Shown: positions 41,292 through 47,830 of the stretch, in pieces | How the letters are laid out: every line of letters starts with the position of its first letter | Position numbering within the stretch: position 1 is the first letter of the stretch | NCBI RefSeq assembly: GCF_030758935.1 | Contig: NZ_CP132333.1 | Coordinates: forward strand, 3,658,992-3,722,991 | Reading direction: 5' to 3' | Source: Geothrix sp. PMB-07 | GTDB lineage: Bacteria > Acidobacteriota > Holophagae > Holophagales > Holophagaceae | Length of the DNA stretch: 64,000 nucleotides | Made by a program: the position numbers and the translations under genes | Notes under the pieces: generated by a model | Database searches by the model: none | What the model was told of the DNA's origin: nothing | Seen by the model: only the letters and a program-made list of their open reading frames with translations

Positions 41292-42236
41292 ATGTCGAAC
41301 CGCACCTGCGAAGCCGTCCAGCGTTCCCTGTCCGAACGGGATGGAGACATCCCCCCCGAGCTGCGCGACCACCTGCAGCACTGCCGGGAATGCGCCCAAA
41401 TGCAATCGCTCATGGGACGCCTGCGGAAGACCGACATGCATCCCGAACCCTCCGACGCCGATTTTCTCGCCCTGCGCCGAGGCGTGCTGAGGGACATCCG
41501 GCGCCACCAGGACCGGAAACCGGGCTTGTTCAAACGCCTGGCGGCCTCTTTCCGCCGACCCGCCTTCGCCCTTTCCGGCTCAGGCCTGTTGGCGGTGGCG
41601 GGCTTCCTGGCAGGGCGACACTCTGGACATCCGGCCACCGTCGCGCCCACTTCCTGGTCCAGTTCTGAAGATGCCATGGTGCGCGAGATCCAGCTGGCAG
41701 CTCTCCAGAACCGCGGGCGCCGGGATGTCGACCAGGCCACCTACCGGTACGAGAACGTCTGGATGGAGGATCGCGCCGACGGTCAGGTGGCGCTCCGCTT
41801 CGACGTCACCCGGCAAGTGGCCCTGGCTCTCCCCAGGAACAATGCCCTCGTATCCGATGTCCTGGCCCAAGTGCTGGCGAGCACCTCTCCGGTCGGCGAG
41901 AAGTTGCGGGCCATCGATTGCGCCGGAACCACCCTCGAACCCGCGGTGCGCCGCGGGCTCATCCAGGTGATGCTGACCGACGCCAACCTGGGCGTGCGTC
42001 TCAAGGCCCAGGCAAAACTCATTGAACAGAACGGTGATCCCGAGATCCAGGAGGCCCTGCTCCGCGTGCTGCAGAACGAGGTGTCAGTGCAGATGAGGCT
42101 GGTGGCCATCGACCACCTGACCCGCCACCGCATCAACCCGGATGTCCTGAGGCAGGCCCTCGCCCCTGCTGCAAGGCCGGATGCCGTGCACCTGAAGGCG
42201 ATGACCTACCTGAACGAACAAGGAGGAACCCTATGA
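41292..42236 (+). CDS. zinc-binding anti-sigma factor with extended C-terminal region
   Basis: A 314-aa protein. The N-terminal domain has the anti-sigma zinc motif H-x3-C-x2-C (His27, Cys31, Cys34 in HLQHCREC). A single TM follows (about 95-111). The periplasmic part is longer than usual and contains helical repeats (about 200-314) resembling HEAT-type repeats (LGVRLKAQAKLIEQNGDPEIQEALL). Expected to hold the ECF factor until an envelope signal. The ATGA at 42233-42236 couples it to the DUF4097 gene. Confidence 0.85.
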   Translation: MSNRTCEAVQRSLSERDGDIPPELRDHLQHCRECAQMQSLMGRLRKTDMHPEPSDADFLALRRGVLRDIRRHQDRKPGLFKRLAASFRRPAFALSGSGLLAVAGFLAGRHSGHPATVAPTSWSSSEDAMVREIQLAALQNRGRRDVDQATYRYENVWMEDRADGQVALRFDVTRQVALALPRNNALVSDVLAQVLASTSPVGEKLRAIDCAGTTLEPAVRRGLIQVMLTDANLGVRLKAQAKLIEQNGDPEIQEALLRVLQNEVSVQMRLVAIDHLTRHRINPDVLRQALAPAARPDAVHLKAMTYLNEQGGTL

Positions 42237-43366
42237 ATGCCCTCATCAAACACCTCGGCCTGAGCCTGGGCCTGAGCCTCTGCCTGCTGGCCCAGCCCCA
42301 AGTACCGGACAAGAAGCTGGAAGCCAGCCCTGGCCAAACCCTCGACGTGAAGCTGGAGACGGGCGGGTCGATCCACATCCGGGGCGGCGCTGAGCATGCC
42401 GTCACGGTGAAGACGAAACTCACGGGCCGGGATGCGGATCAGATCCGCGTGAGTGTCGAGCGCAGCAGCGGCGGTGTCAGCATCGTGTCGAAGTACGAAA
42501 CCAACCGGTCGCGCCAGAGCGGCAGCGCCGATTTGGAAATCACCGTTCCCGGCCGCTTCGACCTGGATCTCAAGAGTGCCGGGGGCGATCTCCGCATCGA
42601 GGGCGTCGAAGGCAACCTGCGCGGAAAGACCATGGGTGGTGGCCTGGACCTCAGCCACCTCAAGGGGAAAGTGGCCCTCTCCAGCATGGGCGGCAGCATC
42701 AGCCTCGTGTCCTCCCAGGTGGAGGGCAAGGTGAGCACCATGGGCGGAACCGTGACCATCAAGGATGTCGTCGGCGACATCAAAGGGTCCTCCATGGGCG
42801 GAAATGTCGTCTATGACAACGTGCAGCGCCCCGGAAAAACGGCGGACGAGAAGGAGGTTGTCATTTCCACCATGGGCGGCGAAATCCGCGTGCCCGCTGC
42901 GCCCTCCGGCGCCAACGTGAAGACGATGGGCGGCAGCATCCACATCGGATCGGCCAAGACCTTCGTGAAGGCCACCACCATGGGCGGGAGCATCGACATC
43001 AAGGAGCTGGATGGCGGCGCCATCGCGACCACCATGGGCGGCGACATCTCCGTGACCATGGTGGGCGATCCGGCGGTGGGCAACCGCGACGTGCGGCTGG
43101 AATCCAAGGGCGGCGAGATCCACCTGACCCTGCCGGCGGGCCTGTCCATGACGGTCGACGTGGAGATCGAGCACACCAAGAACAGCACCCGCACGTTCAA
43201 GATCGACAGTGAATTCCCCCTGGCCATCAGTGAAACGCCGGAATGGAGCGAAAGCCGCGGCACCGCCCGCAAGACCCTCAAGGGCACCGCCTCCATCGGC
43301 GGGGGCAAGCACAAGATCGTGATCCGCACCATCAACGGCAACGTGGTCATCAAGAAGGGCCGCTGA
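42233..43366 (+). CDS. DUF4097-family repetitive secreted protein
   Basis: A 377-aa protein with a signal peptide (about 1-20) and a predicted right-handed beta-helix: eight [ST]MGG motifs recur (KTMGG, SSMGG, STMGG, SSMGG, STMGG, KTMGG, TTMGG, TTMGG), with related SAGG and SKGG turns, typical of DUF4097 putative adhesins. Its third place in the ECF/anti-sigma operon suggests an envelope-stress or surface role. No catalytic residue is evident. The gene ends 29 bp before a large hairpin. Confidence 0.85.
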   Translation: MNALIKHLGLSLGLSLCLLAQPQVPDKKLEASPGQTLDVKLETGGSIHIRGGAEHAVTVKTKLTGRDADQIRVSVERSSGGVSIVSKYETNRSRQSGSADLEITVPGRFDLDLKSAGGDLRIEGVEGNLRGKTMGGGLDLSHLKGKVALSSMGGSISLVSSQVEGKVSTMGGTVTIKDVVGDIKGSSMGGNVVYDNVQRPGKTADEKEVVISTMGGEIRVPAAPSGANVKTMGGSIHIGSAKTFVKATTMGGSIDIKELDGGAIATTMGGDISVTMVGDPAVGNRDVRLESKGGEIHLTLPAGLSMTVDVEIEHTKNSTRTFKIDSEFPLAISETPEWSESRGTARKTLKGTASIGGGKHKIVIRTINGNVVIKKGR

Positions 43367-43480: not shown

Positions 43481-46315
43481 TCAGTGGCTGGGCGCGGCCT
43501 TGGGCGCGAAGCCCTTGCGGATGACCTCCAGCAGCCTCCCGTCATCGCCGTGGTATTCCCAGAACATCACACCGCCCAGGCCGCGATCCACGATGTAGCG
43601 GCATTTGGCGCCGAGGCTTTCCTCGTCCTCGTAGGTGATCCAGAGGCCCTTGGCAGGGTTGTAGAGGTAGGGCGCCTGGGCCAGATCGTCCCAGAAGCGC
43701 TGGAAGCCGTCCTTGTTCTCCAGCTTGTCCTTGAGGTTGGTGAAGGAGGTGAAGAGGTTCAGCTTCGCGGCGCCGCCAGGCTGGTAGAGGCCGTGGGCCT
43801 TGTTCCGCACGCCGCCCCAGGGCTTGCCGTAGAAGGGAACGCCCAGCACCAGCTTCCGCTCGGGCACGCCCGCAGCCACGAAGTGATCCACGATGGTGCT
43901 CGCCGCATAGCCCTTGGGGTTCGCGGGGTTGGTGAACAAAGGCGCGTGGTGGCCCGTGGTGGCATCGGCCTCGGCCTCGTACTGGTCGTAGGTCATGAGG
44001 TTCACGTAGTCGAGGTGGCGGGACATCTGGTCCATTTCGGTGTTGGCCAGGAAGCTGTCCATGGCGCCCGCCGCGATGGTCAGGAGCAGGCGGCGGCCCT
44101 TGCGCTCGCCCAGGCGATCCAGACCGGCCCGCAGATCCGCCATCAGCAGGGTGGCGTTGTGCTTGTCCTCGGGCCGGTTCACATTGCCGTAGCCCGGCAG
44201 GCCCGGGTATTCCCAGTCCACATCCAGGCCATCGAGGTCGTGCCGGTCCACGTAGGCCATGGCGCTCTCCACGAAGACCTTCCGGGATTCCGCCGTGAGG
44301 GAGGCATCCGAGAAACCTCCGGACCAGGTCCAGCCGCCCACGGAAACCAGCACCTTGAGGGCGGGATTCTTCGCCTTGAGGCCGTTGAGCACCCGGTAAT
44401 TCTCGGTGTCGTGTTTGAAGCCTTCCACCATGCGACCGTTCTTGATGTCGGCGAAGGCGTAGTTGATGTGCGTCAGCCGGGTGGGATCCACCTCCTGGGG
44501 GCCCAGGCGGCGATCCTGCGGGAACACATAGGCGATGACTGTTTTCGGCGCCGGGCTGGGCATGGCATGATCGCCCGCAGCCACGGCCAGCAGGTACCAG
44601 GCGCCGTGGGGCAGCCACTGCTCGCCCCAGCGCCAGTCGTCATCCTTGCCGGTCACGGAATAGGGCACGTTGAAGGAGATGTCGTGCTCATCCGTCAGGC
44701 CCGAGCAGATGCCGTTGACGATGCCGCCCGGAACATTCTGGTACTGCCAGGTGCCCAGCCAGCCGTACTCGGGATTGTTGTGGCCCGTGCCATGCAGCAT
44801 GGACGCGTCGAAGGGATTGAGGCCCAGGATCCAGTTCAACTGGTCGACCGCATAGCTCCTGAGCTTCACCAGGAAGGGGCTTTCCTCCGCAAAGAGGGGC
44901 GCAGCGAGACGCGCCGCCGCCGCCAAGGAGCCCAGGCGCGCGTTCTCGCCCTGCCACCAGGGCGCCGTTTCGGTGTCGTGGGGAAAGAAGAAGGCGGTGC
45001 GCCGCTCTCCGGCTTTGTTCTGCACCTTCTGCCGAGCTAGGCCAAAAGGATTTGCCACCTCACCGGTCACCGTCAATTCGTACTGCAGTGATTTGCGCAC
45101 CACCTCCAGCAGGCGGGGCTGCAGGGCCTTGGGCGCCAGGTCGTGGAAGGCCAGCAGCGCGACGACCGGAAGTCCGGCGTCGGAGGGGTGGAAGAAGGGA
45201 CGGTCTTTGTCGTCCGCCCGCCAGGAGCCATCAGGCAGCAGCCGCGCCATCAGGCGCTCGGCGCGGGCCGCGGCGGCGGCCAGGTGGCGTGGATTTGAGG
45301 TGGTGCGGGCCAGCTCCGTGGCGGCCGTGAGGGCCGTCATGTCGTCCAGGAGGTTTTCTTTGTGATCGTTCAGCAGCTCCGTGTTGTGGGCTTCCAGGTA
45401 GTCGAAGGCCGCTTCGGCGGTCTTACGGTAGGTGGCCGGATCAAAATCGCCGCCCTGGGGCAGTCGTGCCGCCATGGCCAACGCCGCGATGGCCATGCCC
45501 GCACCACCGCGGTAGCCCACCTGGCTGCCCACGGTCTTGTCGTACTGGGCGATCTGGCGATCCTCGGGTTTCTTGCCCGGGCCCGGGGACATCACGGTCT
45601 GGTGGAAGGAGCCCTTGGGATCCCTGATGCGCACTAGGTAGTCGGCTCCGAAGAGGGCCTCGTCCACCAGCCGCCGACGGATCTGCGCATGGTTCACGTC
45701 CTGGCGGGCGGCCAGCAGGTCGTGGCTGCGCAGCAGGCTGTAGACCACCAGGGGAATCTGCTGGGTGTTGAAGTAGGTGGCGGAGCTGAGCTGGGAGAAG
45801 TGCTTGCCGTAGTCGCCGGTGGCGTCGAACCACCCGCCGCGGGCATCCATGCGCTGGCCGGTTTCCTTCACCATCACGTTGCGATCAGCCTTGTCCAGGA
45901 GGCCCGAGCTGCGCTGCCCCTTGAAGTAGGCCAGCACGTTGGAAAGGGTGTGCCGCTCGAGCACCTGGGCCTGCACCTTGAAGGGCAGGGAACGAATCGC
46001 CCGGTCCCCATGGTAGGCCACCAGCACGTAGTCGCCTTCCAGCTGCAGGTCCGTGAAGTCCAGGGGCCAGAAGGTCCAGTCGCGCCAGCGGTCCACCGGC
46101 GTGCCCACGCCGATGTCGCCCTTGAACACCACCCGGTCCGCGGGCCAGGTGCGGATCTCATAGCGGTCGAAAGTTTCGCCTGCCCCGGCCCGGACGACGG
46201 CGTGTTTCGCACCGTAGCGTTCATAGCCCAGGTGGTTGGTGAGCACCAGGGGAACCTCCGCCGCGAGCAGGCTCGCAGCGAACAGACAACAGGCCAGGCG
46301 AAGCAGCAGCTTCAT
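43481..46315 (-). CDS. GH9-GH18 fusion glycoside hydrolase, secreted
   Basis: A 944-aa protein with a signal peptide (about 1-19). Residues 20-110 form a CelD_N-type immunoglobulin-like domain. About 115-585 is a GH9 (alpha/alpha)6-barrel with GGWFDATGDYGKH (Asp164, Asp168) and a C-terminal LNPFDASMLHGTGHNNP block. About 590-940 is a GH18 (beta/alpha)8-barrel with the complete motif DGLDVDWE (acid Glu702, Asp700, Asp698). GH18 cleaves chitin and GH9 cuts beta-1,4 glucans or, in some members, glucosamine units. GGAGG lies 7 bases before the ATG. It follows the acyltransferase gene by 13 bp. Confidence 0.92.
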   Translation of the reverse strand: MKLLLRLACCLFAASLLAAEVPLVLTNHLGYERYGAKHAVVRAGAGETFDRYEIRTWPADRVVFKGDIGVGTPVDRWRDWTFWPLDFTDLQLEGDYVLVAYHGDRAIRSLPFKVQAQVLERHTLSNVLAYFKGQRSSGLLDKADRNVMVKETGQRMDARGGWFDATGDYGKHFSQLSSATYFNTQQIPLVVYSLLRSHDLLAARQDVNHAQIRRRLVDEALFGADYLVRIRDPKGSFHQTVMSPGPGKKPEDRQIAQYDKTVGSQVGYRGGAGMAIAALAMAARLPQGGDFDPATYRKTAEAAFDYLEAHNTELLNDHKENLLDDMTALTAATELARTTSNPRHLAAAAARAERLMARLLPDGSWRADDKDRPFFHPSDAGLPVVALLAFHDLAPKALQPRLLEVVRKSLQYELTVTGEVANPFGLARQKVQNKAGERRTAFFFPHDTETAPWWQGENARLGSLAAAARLAAPLFAEESPFLVKLRSYAVDQLNWILGLNPFDASMLHGTGHNNPEYGWLGTWQYQNVPGGIVNGICSGLTDEHDISFNVPYSVTGKDDDWRWGEQWLPHGAWYLLAVAAGDHAMPSPAPKTVIAYVFPQDRRLGPQEVDPTRLTHINYAFADIKNGRMVEGFKHDTENYRVLNGLKAKNPALKVLVSVGGWTWSGGFSDASLTAESRKVFVESAMAYVDRHDLDGLDVDWEYPGLPGYGNVNRPEDKHNATLLMADLRAGLDRLGERKGRRLLLTIAAGAMDSFLANTEMDQMSRHLDYVNLMTYDQYEAEADATTGHHAPLFTNPANPKGYAASTIVDHFVAAGVPERKLVLGVPFYGKPWGGVRNKAHGLYQPGGAAKLNLFTSFTNLKDKLENKDGFQRFWDDLAQAPYLYNPAKGLWITYEDEESLGAKCRYIVDRGLGGVMFWEYHGDDGRLLEVIRKGFAPKAAPSH

Positions 46316-46328
46316 GAGCCATCCTCCA

Positions 46329-47555
46329 TCAAAGTTTCAGGGCGAATCCACGGCGCAGGGACACCCCTGCGAGCCAGGTGAAGGCCACGGCCACAACGGC
46401 CGCCCGCAGCGCCCCACTCGGAAATCCCGGCGCCAGATGGTTCCAGGTCCAGCCATGACCCACGGAGAGACAGAACAGATCCACGGCCACGAAAACCATG
46501 GGCACGATGAGGTAAACCCACAAAGCATTGCCACCCGCAGCGGCCAGCCACTCGGTGCCCTTGCGCCGTCCCGCCACGTCCACCACCAGGTAGATGGCCA
46601 GCCAGAGCAGCGCGCTGTAGGCGGCGCTGCGAAGACACCAGGCCGGCGTGCCGAGCACCTTGCTGAGGGTGAAGACCGGGTGCCAGGCGGCAGCCGCGTG
46701 GACGCACCAGCTTGCCGCGTAGAGCACGAGCACGAAACCGAGGGTCCAGCGCACCCGCGCACGGGGACTCGGTTCGCCACGCAGGAAGGTGCCCAGTCCC
46801 GCGCCCGCCAGGGCGATGGCCGCGTGGGGCGCCATGGCGGGCACCGGGTTCCACGGGCTTCGCCAGAGGAACCAGCCATCCAGCGCCTTGGCTTCCATGG
46901 CCAGGATGAACACCAGCCACAGCGCCATGCCCCCGAGGATCACCTCCATCCGTTTCCGCCCCCGGATGTAGACGAGACAGGCGCCCAGGTAGGCCCAGCC
47001 GATGAGGCCGATGATCCCCCACCAGGAGGGCGCCAAGGCCGAAAGGCCGGAGCCATGGCGGCCGGGATACCACGTCAGAAGCATGCCGAGCGTCAGCGCG
47101 CCCCCAAGCCGGAGCGCACGGACGCGCCTCGGCCGCGTGGCCCGCCAGCCTTCGTACGTGTGCCACACCAGGATGAGGCTGCCGAAGGTGGCCAACTGCC
47201 AAAGGCCCACAAGCCATGCGGGTTCAGCGGCGGCGCTTTCTGAGTTCACCATCACGAATCCGATGACCACCAGCCCGGCGGTGCGCGAGGCGACATGGCG
47301 CCACACGAGGCCTGCCGGCGCGCCGCCCTCCAGGCGTCGGCCCAGGGCGAAGGGCAGCGCCATGCCCACCATGAAGAGGAAGGCCGGAAACACCAGATCG
47401 GTGAAGCTCATGTAGTCAGCCCGGAAGGGCGCGTGGCGCAGCCACCAGGGCACCCCCGGAACGCCCTCCAGGTCGTTCACGAAGAGCATGGCCAGGACGA
47501 TGGCGCCCCGGAAGACATCCAACGAATGCAGGCGGGCTGGGGCGGCTGGAGCCAC
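46329..47555 (-). CDS. HGSNAT/DUF5009-like membrane acyltransferase
   Basis: A 408-aa protein with about ten TM helices and the family's N-terminal signature LDVFRGAIVLAMLFVND followed by DYMSFTDLVFPAFLFMVGMALPFALGRR. Human HGSNAT transfers acetyl from cytosolic acetyl-CoA across a membrane to glucosamine residues. The start is GTG 47555 with GGAG seven bases upstream; the longer TTG start at 47624 has weak support. It lies in the operon before the GH9-GH18 gene, which suggests acetylating an amino sugar from chitin or chitosan. Inferred from neighbours. Confidence 0.85.
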   Translation of the reverse strand: MAPAAPARLHSLDVFRGAIVLAMLFVNDLEGVPGVPWWLRHAPFRADYMSFTDLVFPAFLFMVGMALPFALGRRLEGGAPAGLVWRHVASRTAGLVVIGFVMVNSESAAAEPAWLVGLWQLATFGSLILVWHTYEGWRATRPRRVRALRLGGALTLGMLLTWYPGRHGSGLSALAPSWWGIIGLIGWAYLGACLVYIRGRKRMEVILGGMALWLVFILAMEAKALDGWFLWRSPWNPVPAMAPHAAIALAGAGLGTFLRGEPSPRARVRWTLGFVLVLYAASWCVHAAAAWHPVFTLSKVLGTPAWCLRSAAYSALLWLAIYLVVDVAGRRKGTEWLAAAGGNALWVYLIVPMVFVAVDLFCLSVGHGWTWNHLAPGFPSGALRAAVVAVAFTWLAGVSLRRGFALKL

Positions 47556-47667
47556 GGCGGTTCTCCAGGATGGTGGCTGGGGGTGAGCCGCCCCCCATCT
47601 TGCCAGCGCCCACGCCAGCCTCAAGGGAGATTCGCCGGGAGACCCAAAGATGAGTAGAACTACTCAG

Positions 47668-47829
47668 AGGTCGTAACAAAATCCGACGATGCCGCGCGAG
47701 GGATGAAGCCAGGCAAGCGCCCCGCGGCGTCAGGTCCCTTGAACAACGAACCACGTTGCCCTGCGGGCCCTTCCTTGCGGCGTATCCTGCCTGGCTTCAT
47801 CGCGGCATCGTGGGGTTTTGTTACGACCT
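47668..47829. mobile_element. MITE-like palindromic element, 162 bp
   Basis: Arms of 48 and 42 bp are inverted repeats starting AGGTCGTAACAAAA at both ends, with two mismatches, then ACGATGCCGCG, a 6-base insertion in the left arm, and ATGAAGCCAGGCA. The centre has a small CAACG/CGTTG hairpin. CTCAG direct repeats flank it (47663-47667 and 47830-47834), a 5-bp target duplication. No coding sequence. It lies at the stop codon of the minus-strand kinase gene and may also act as its terminator. Confidence 0.8.
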
Positions 47830-47830
47830 C

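Follow-up and report, generated by a model that had tools for sequence, protein, structure and literature searches.

A protein that joins a GH9 domain to a GH18 chitinase domain in one polypeptide, and a membrane acyltransferase encoded directly upstream of it, were found in a 64,000-nucleotide stretch of Geothrix sp. PMB-07 (contig NZ_CP132333.1, positions 3,658,992 to 3,722,991; hereafter the window). The best explanation for the locus as a whole is that it handles partly deacetylated chitin by means of these two proteins, which we regard as moderately probable. Natural chitin is partly deacetylated, and as GH18 and GH20 enzymes both rely on the N-acetyl group of the sugar they cleave, glucosamine (GlcN) residues block them. 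To our knowledge, bacterial ways past this block have been little studied. The parts of the locus are known kinds of enzyme; the fusion and its GH9 branch look unstudied.

The fusion protein and its GH9 half

The fusion gene is a single open frame of 944 amino acids (43481-46315, minus strand, as are its domains and the acyltransferase gene). Residues 1-20 (46256-46315) are a probable Sec signal peptide, as the N-terminus MKLLLRLACCLFAASLLAAE, judged by eye from the translation, reads as one. A CelD_N Ig-like domain and an exo-type GH9 catalytic domain follow (residues 22-580, 44576-46252, from Pfam and structure-database matches), and then a GH18 chitinase domain (residues 600-937, 43505-44518). 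Pfam placed CelD_N at residues 22-100, GH9 at residues 123-523 (64.5 bits, cut-off 27.7) and GH18 at residues 608-924 (256 bits, cut-off 29.6), and the GH18 half contains the DxxDxDxE motif as DGLDVDWE at residues 695-702. An earlier note, made from the letters of this DNA, had described a secreted single polypeptide with GH9 and a complete GH18 carrying this motif; that description holds, secretion being a reading by eye. The full domain and the motif are shared with GH18 chitinases of the 5gzu, 6kst and 1itx kind, from which the protein differs in that its GH18 makes up the C-terminal half, behind a GH9 domain.

Compared with all solved structures, the GH9 half matched three exo-acting Vibrionaceae enzymes (VC0615, PBPRA0520 and VP2484) with E-values of 5e-134 to 6e-125, while the fourth and last match up to E 1 reached 1.4e-4. 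With a 16-sequence GH9 profile, the same three enzymes were found at E 3.3e-198 or better and the best cellulase-type entry at 2.7e-18. For a control GH9 of another acidobacterium (L017), the top matches were endoglucanases and a cellulase (E 1.6e-18 and 3.4e-18), ahead of the exo enzymes (E 3.8e-12 to 8.9e-10), so cellulases are detectable in the same structure set. We therefore rejected an endoglucanase, as the exo enzymes were far ahead of cellulases in both single-sequence and profile searches. The GH9 half is not a cellulase and, by its sequence subgroup, appears to be of the glucosaminidase type, which the earlier note had set as a condition of its hypothesis; the placement among endoglucanases that it had named as the contrary outcome was not found.

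VC0615 is reported to split (GlcN)2 quickly, cellobiose slowly and the N-acetylglucosamine (GlcNAc) dimer (GlcNAc)2 not at all (PMC6096475). In this enzyme D140 is the postulated base, E546 the acid and D144 the residue that likely holds the water, and two long loops close the exo site (PMC6096475). The three residues correspond to D164, E565 and D168 of the fusion protein, respectively, and the loops (VC0615 residues 112-162 and 404-442) aligned gap-free over 51 and 39 residues. The window protein thus has in common with the Vibrionaceae enzymes the sequence subgroup, the catalytic D/D/E, the exo-forming loops and the Ig-like N-terminal domain; it differs in its fusion to GH18, in the signal peptide seen by eye and in two pocket residues considered below. 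Its GH9 belongs to a sister branch of the Vibrionaceae exo enzymes, and we found no characterised member of that branch. We conclude that the GH9 half is probably an exo-acting, glucosaminidase-type enzyme.

The acyltransferase and the two-gene arrangement

The upstream gene encodes an HGSNAT-like (DUF5009) membrane acyltransferase of 408 amino acids (46329-47555). Its stop at 46329 is followed by a 13-bp intergenic gap (46316-46328) with a GGAGG ribosome site (46327-46323) and then by the ATG of the fusion gene at 46315. The two genes therefore form an apparent operon, as the earlier note had claimed. In a second genome of the genus (G028), the fusion has a full-length ortholog (87% identity), next to which the acyltransferase gene takes the same position (82% identity); the shared arrangement rules out an assembly error. 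The GTG start of the acyltransferase at 47555, the upper limit of the range given in the earlier note, has a GGAGAACCGCC box ahead. An alternative TTG start would extend the frame to 47624, but is less likely, because the window and G028 differ by insertions or deletions in the part from TTG to GTG, while the sequence from the GGAG box onward is nearly the same in both.

In Pfam, the acyltransferase matched DUF5009 alone, barely above the cut-off (25.6 against 25 bits). Human HGSNAT matched it at E 4e-11 with the active histidine aligned. The structure model of the acyltransferase had a predicted local distance difference test score (pLDDT) of 90.2, and its best structural match was HGSNAT (Z 33.5 over 324 residues), followed by GWT1 (Z 18.3) and others at 6.5 or below. 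The Asn286-His297-Asp307 site of HGSNAT (PMC11199644) is present as N27, H41 and D53; the histidine and aspartate are invariant in all 27 aligned acyltransferase proteins and the asparagine is kept in at least 90%. Predicted fold and site are thus common to both proteins, and the luminal domain of HGSNAT is missing from the window acyltransferase.

An OpgC-like acyltransferase was considered and rejected: DUF5009 was the sole Pfam match, the OpgC model was not among the Pfam matches at E 0.001, and HGSNAT heads the structural lists, which do not exclude families absent from them. The OpgC-like grouping that the earlier note had named as speaking against its reading did not occur.

Distribution of the fusion and gene neighbourhoods

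Six records of the fusion were found: the window, G028 (whose locus also appears as L083) and four outside the genus, two of which are broken or ambiguous. Those in L089 (969 amino acids) and L097 (1004 amino acids) come from Lysobacterales assemblies; L064 (the same as G358) has undetermined or masked bases near the end of the fusion, and L116, an acidobacterial assembly, has a frame broken near the end. Within the genus, one of 36 relatives carries the fusion gene and none of four other members searched had GH18; GH20 gave three matches in the window's genome, three in G028 and none in two other members searched. In a scan of 396 genomes of the phylum that scored two candidates per genome, so that its counts are lower bounds, a single match spanned both halves in three genomes (the window's, G028 and G358). 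The acyltransferase adjoins the fusion in the window, G028 and L116.

In a 95-leaf GH9 tree, built without identical sequences and domains under 230 residues, the clade that contains the six fused domains includes just two that are unfused (support 0.64). The GH18 halves of the fusions likewise form a group in their own tree, as 6 of 33 leaves with midpoint rooting (support 0.67). A single ancient fusion that was later lost in some lineages is possible, though weakly supported. In literature searches, none of the titles and abstract openings listed named a GH9-GH18 fusion; the architecture list of PMC4928363 may already hold one. Two catalytic domains per polypeptide are also found in CmChi3 (PMC8908422), which pairs two GH18 domains, and in the multi-activity glycoside hydrolases of PMC4928363, where the part consulted does not specify GH9-GH18 among six proteins targeting cellulose and chitin. 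The earlier note had described the organisation as seemingly unusual; this fits the fusion, but the three parts are found associated in several phyla.

Nine Acidobacteriaceae genomes carry GH9 and GH18 as separate genes, in all nine 0.2-5.2 kb apart, and in each the acyltransferase gene adjoins the GH18 gene, with a 4-bp overlap in eight. In the Pfam-scanned locus among them (L072), a gene for a TonB-type receptor lies just upstream of the GH18 gene. Of 17 GH9-bearing regions examined across the phylum, ten contain the acyltransferase, two contain GH20 instead (G125 and G311) and one, G358, has the fused GH18 without the acyltransferase.

The wider set consisted of the 80 best loci in named genomes, from at least 529 GH9 relatives on at least 591 stretches; 19 of the 80 were shorter than 19 kb. 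The GH18, GH20 and acyltransferase genes in them were found with our own profiles (that for GH20 built from two sequences), so that some may be missed. An HGSNAT/NagX-type acyltransferase occurred in 19 of the 80 loci, at least one of them (L147) NagX-like, GH18 in 22 (4 fused), both together in 15, and GH20 in 6. Because its frame is broken, L116 is counted both among the 4 fused and among the 19 separate GH18 genes. Genes of a mannose-family phosphotransferase system (PTS), scored as two or more proteins of such clusters with enzyme I included, were present in 12 loci, accompanied by NagB in 9 of these; neighbour clusters were named from one Pfam-scanned representative each. A mannose-family PTS can take GlcN, and its presence with NagB beside GH9 fits GlcN as the released sugar. 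The acyltransferase directly adjoins GH18 or GH9 not only in the Acidobacteriaceae but also in Aminicenantes (L094), Hufsiella (L106) and Mucilaginibacter (L090-L092 and L131). In Hufsiella ginkgonis (L106, 177-18347), one stretch holds two GH9 genes, one for each type of pocket residues, along with two acyltransferases and GH18, GH20, PTS and NagB genes. Neighbourhoods in part of the relatives therefore support a use of amino sugars.

Other partners of the same GH9 branch were also seen. In L102 (9001-12009), L127 (4765-7815) and L137 (8989-11931), the GH9 is fused to a redoxin/thioredoxin protein instead, and in L131 an unfused redoxin-type gene, of a cluster present in nine loci, follows GH9.

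Proposed pathway and alternatives

From these data we infer as follows which substrates are used, where in the cell this happens, how the enzymes share the work and what accepts the acetyl group. The target would be mixed GlcNAc/GlcN chains of partly deacetylated chitin. In the Sec-exported fusion protein, the GH18 chitinase would cut where an N-acetyl group is present on the sugar, and the exo-acting GH9 domain would take off the GlcN at non-reducing ends that brings GH18 and GH20 to a halt. The released GlcN would enter catabolism through sugar transporters, a ROK kinase and NagB encoded elsewhere in the genome. The acyltransferase would carry acetyl from cytosolic acetyl-CoA across the membrane to the amine of GlcN on the outer (periplasmic) face. 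The acceptor would be free GlcN, as proposed for NagX, or a GlcN at the end of an oligosaccharide, in the way HGSNAT works on heparan sulfate. A more specific version, which we hold only tentatively and consider somewhat doubtful, is an unstudied pair in which a GH9 with a rebuilt pocket around sugar position 2 works with a DUF5009 enzyme that re-acetylates the non-reducing-end GlcN of chito-oligosaccharides, so that GH18 and GH20 can proceed. If true, this would be a bacterial counterpart of HGSNAT in lysosomal heparan sulfate breakdown, and the operon would hold both ways past the GlcN block, trimming and re-acetylation.

The locus and its relatives form a compact, testable set, consisting of a fused chitinase-glucosaminidase, a GH9 branch across several phyla and a DUF5009 acyltransferase. 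There is a strong hint of the substrate for an acyltransferase family of unknown function, and enzymes for the processing of mixed chitin/chitosan could be modelled on the fusion as it occurs in nature.

Near 3.43 Mb, the genome contains an amino-sugar cluster (L177:1-16106 and L182:14931-16695) that speaks for this pathway, with a TonB-type receptor, a GH20, a GH2 with an exo-glucosaminidase Ig domain, two major facilitator superfamily transporters, a ROK kinase, a NagB-family protein and a PIG-L protein whose gene lies tail to tail with that of NagB. The GH2 is the first of several results that weigh against the processing of partly deacetylated chitin by the window locus, as the genome already has an enzyme with an exo-glucosaminidase domain. 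NagA was not found above the cut-off in the genome, the best match being a 70-residue stretch at 24.8 bits; the model matched all 14 control genomes but exceeded the cut-off in 7, and may thus overlook a divergent NagA. The PIG-L protein beside NagB might stand in for the missing enzyme. Modelling of the entire fusion protein gave a structure of low quality (pLDDT 57.2, predicted template modelling score 0.48, six sequences), which offers no view of the pocket and was set aside. Among the 17 GH9-bearing regions examined, seven have no acyltransferase, and four of these contain neither acyltransferase nor GH18 nor GH20, including one 5.3-kb contig and a tenth Acidobacteriaceae genome (G392, L077) in which GH9 has neither GH18 nor acyltransferase nearby. 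The same three genes are missing from the available flank in 50 of the 80 loci, 13 of them cut by contig ends; PTS genes occur in 6 of the 50, which leaves 44 loci without any amino-sugar neighbour in the available flank. The other frequent neighbours (ThuA-type in 16 loci, a regulator in 12, redoxin-type in 9) have no voice for amino sugars. In five loci PTS, NagB and acyltransferase occur together; direct use of GlcN is possible there, and acetylating free GlcN would be a detour.

The pocket of the GH9 half is a further point of this kind. In VC0615, Tyr148, Trp220 and Tyr232 lie near the 2-amino group (PMC6096475). Tyr232 aligns with Tyr258, in a column that varies among relatives, while Tyr148 and Trp220 are replaced by His172 and Gly245. 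With two of the three residues replaced, the specificity may have moved; according to PMC6096475, however, these residues do not obviously explain the preference for GlcN, so that their replacement is no firm bar to the activity. The replacement characterises the branch: in 99 GH9 rows drawn from 100 loci and the window, which include records present twice (for example L063/L083 and L065/L108, one contig each), the Tyr148 column has a letter in 98 rows, of which 95 show His, and the Trp220 column is Gly in 94 of 99; three rows have the Vibrio-like Tyr, two of these also Trp. These residues could admit a larger 2-substituent, and the branch might then be an exo-beta-N-acetylglucosaminidase or act on GlcNAc/GlcN hetero-ends, the fusion making GlcNAc from chitin and the acyltransferase handling leftover GlcN. 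That Hufsiella keeps both residue types in one cluster, which are therefore probably not redundant, favours such a change. We nevertheless consider it unlikely, as the mannose-family PTS and NagB genes next to members of this branch are consistent with a release of GlcN, and the genome has three GH20 matches that would serve GlcNAc ends; moreover, we know of no GH9 exo-beta-N-acetylglucosaminidase. Still less likely, in our judgement, is an exo-beta-glucosidase on cello-oligosaccharides, with the protein working on mixed plant and fungal cell-wall material. VC0615 also cleaves beta-glucosides, although more slowly (PMC6096475), proteins with both cellulose- and chitin-targeting domains have been reported (six in PMC4928363), and some GH9 loci contain other sugar genes (alpha-amylase-type in L077; possible alpha-galactosidase in five loci, by eye). 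Against this, no cellulase or beta-glucosidase was found among the sampled Pfam-scanned neighbour genes, where GH20, NagB and PTS were found, and the fusion gene is the sole GH9 gene of the genome.

For the acyltransferase, the point against glucosamine acetylation is its distance from NagX: with the NagX model (NF046061) it scored 23.7 bits, far under the equivalog cut-off of 480. NagX is said to occur in chitin operons, a likeness to the window locus, and is reported to be needed for glucosamine as carbon or nitrogen source, which is a report on NagX and not on the DUF5009 type (PMC9007349). By sequence and model, the acyltransferase belongs with HGSNAT but is distinct from NagX. Its HGSNAT-like sequence, predicted fold and site agree with the earlier claim that it belongs to the type that N-acetylates glucosamine; the NagX score makes a direct transfer of that function less secure. 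The enzyme might also be independent of the hydrolase, modifying another surface sugar or serving, like the TfMurT relative cited in connection with NagX, as a transporter. The missed NagX cut-off and a Pfam class of unknown function would agree with this, as would a second family member that lies away from the chitin genes of the genome and the three of six fusion records (L064, L089 and L097) in whose available flank no acyltransferase was found. We think such independence improbable given the direct adjacency to GH18 or GH9 in four lineages and the full conservation of the catalytic His and Asp across the 27 aligned proteins. As a rough yardstick, with the two family members of the 4.24-Mb genome, about 1% of random 20-kb stretches would be expected to contain one.

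Processing of partly deacetylated chitin by both proteins remains our preferred explanation. The hypothesis of the earlier note, that the pair depolymerises partly deacetylated chitin and re-acetylates the product, appears largely right but unproven: the GH9 subgroup, the HGSNAT-like fold and part of the neighbourhoods speak for it, the pocket residues, the NagX score, the NagA search and the 44 loci without amino-sugar neighbours against it.

Two further features flank the operon. The gene at 42233-43366 encodes a protein in which TMGG motifs, noted by eye, are repeated and which Pfam does not match. A search of 25 genus relatives gave only weak, partial matches, in 24 of them; as even G028 matches it weakly, gain and loss of the locus cannot be traced by that route. 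Between a histidine kinase gene and the acyltransferase lies a hairpin insertion of about 163 bp (47667-47830), bounded by terminal inverted repeats of 15 bp and possibly by a duplicated CTGAG target. It is missing from G028, has two more partial copies elsewhere in the genome (92-93% identity) and looks like a miniature inverted-repeat transposable element.

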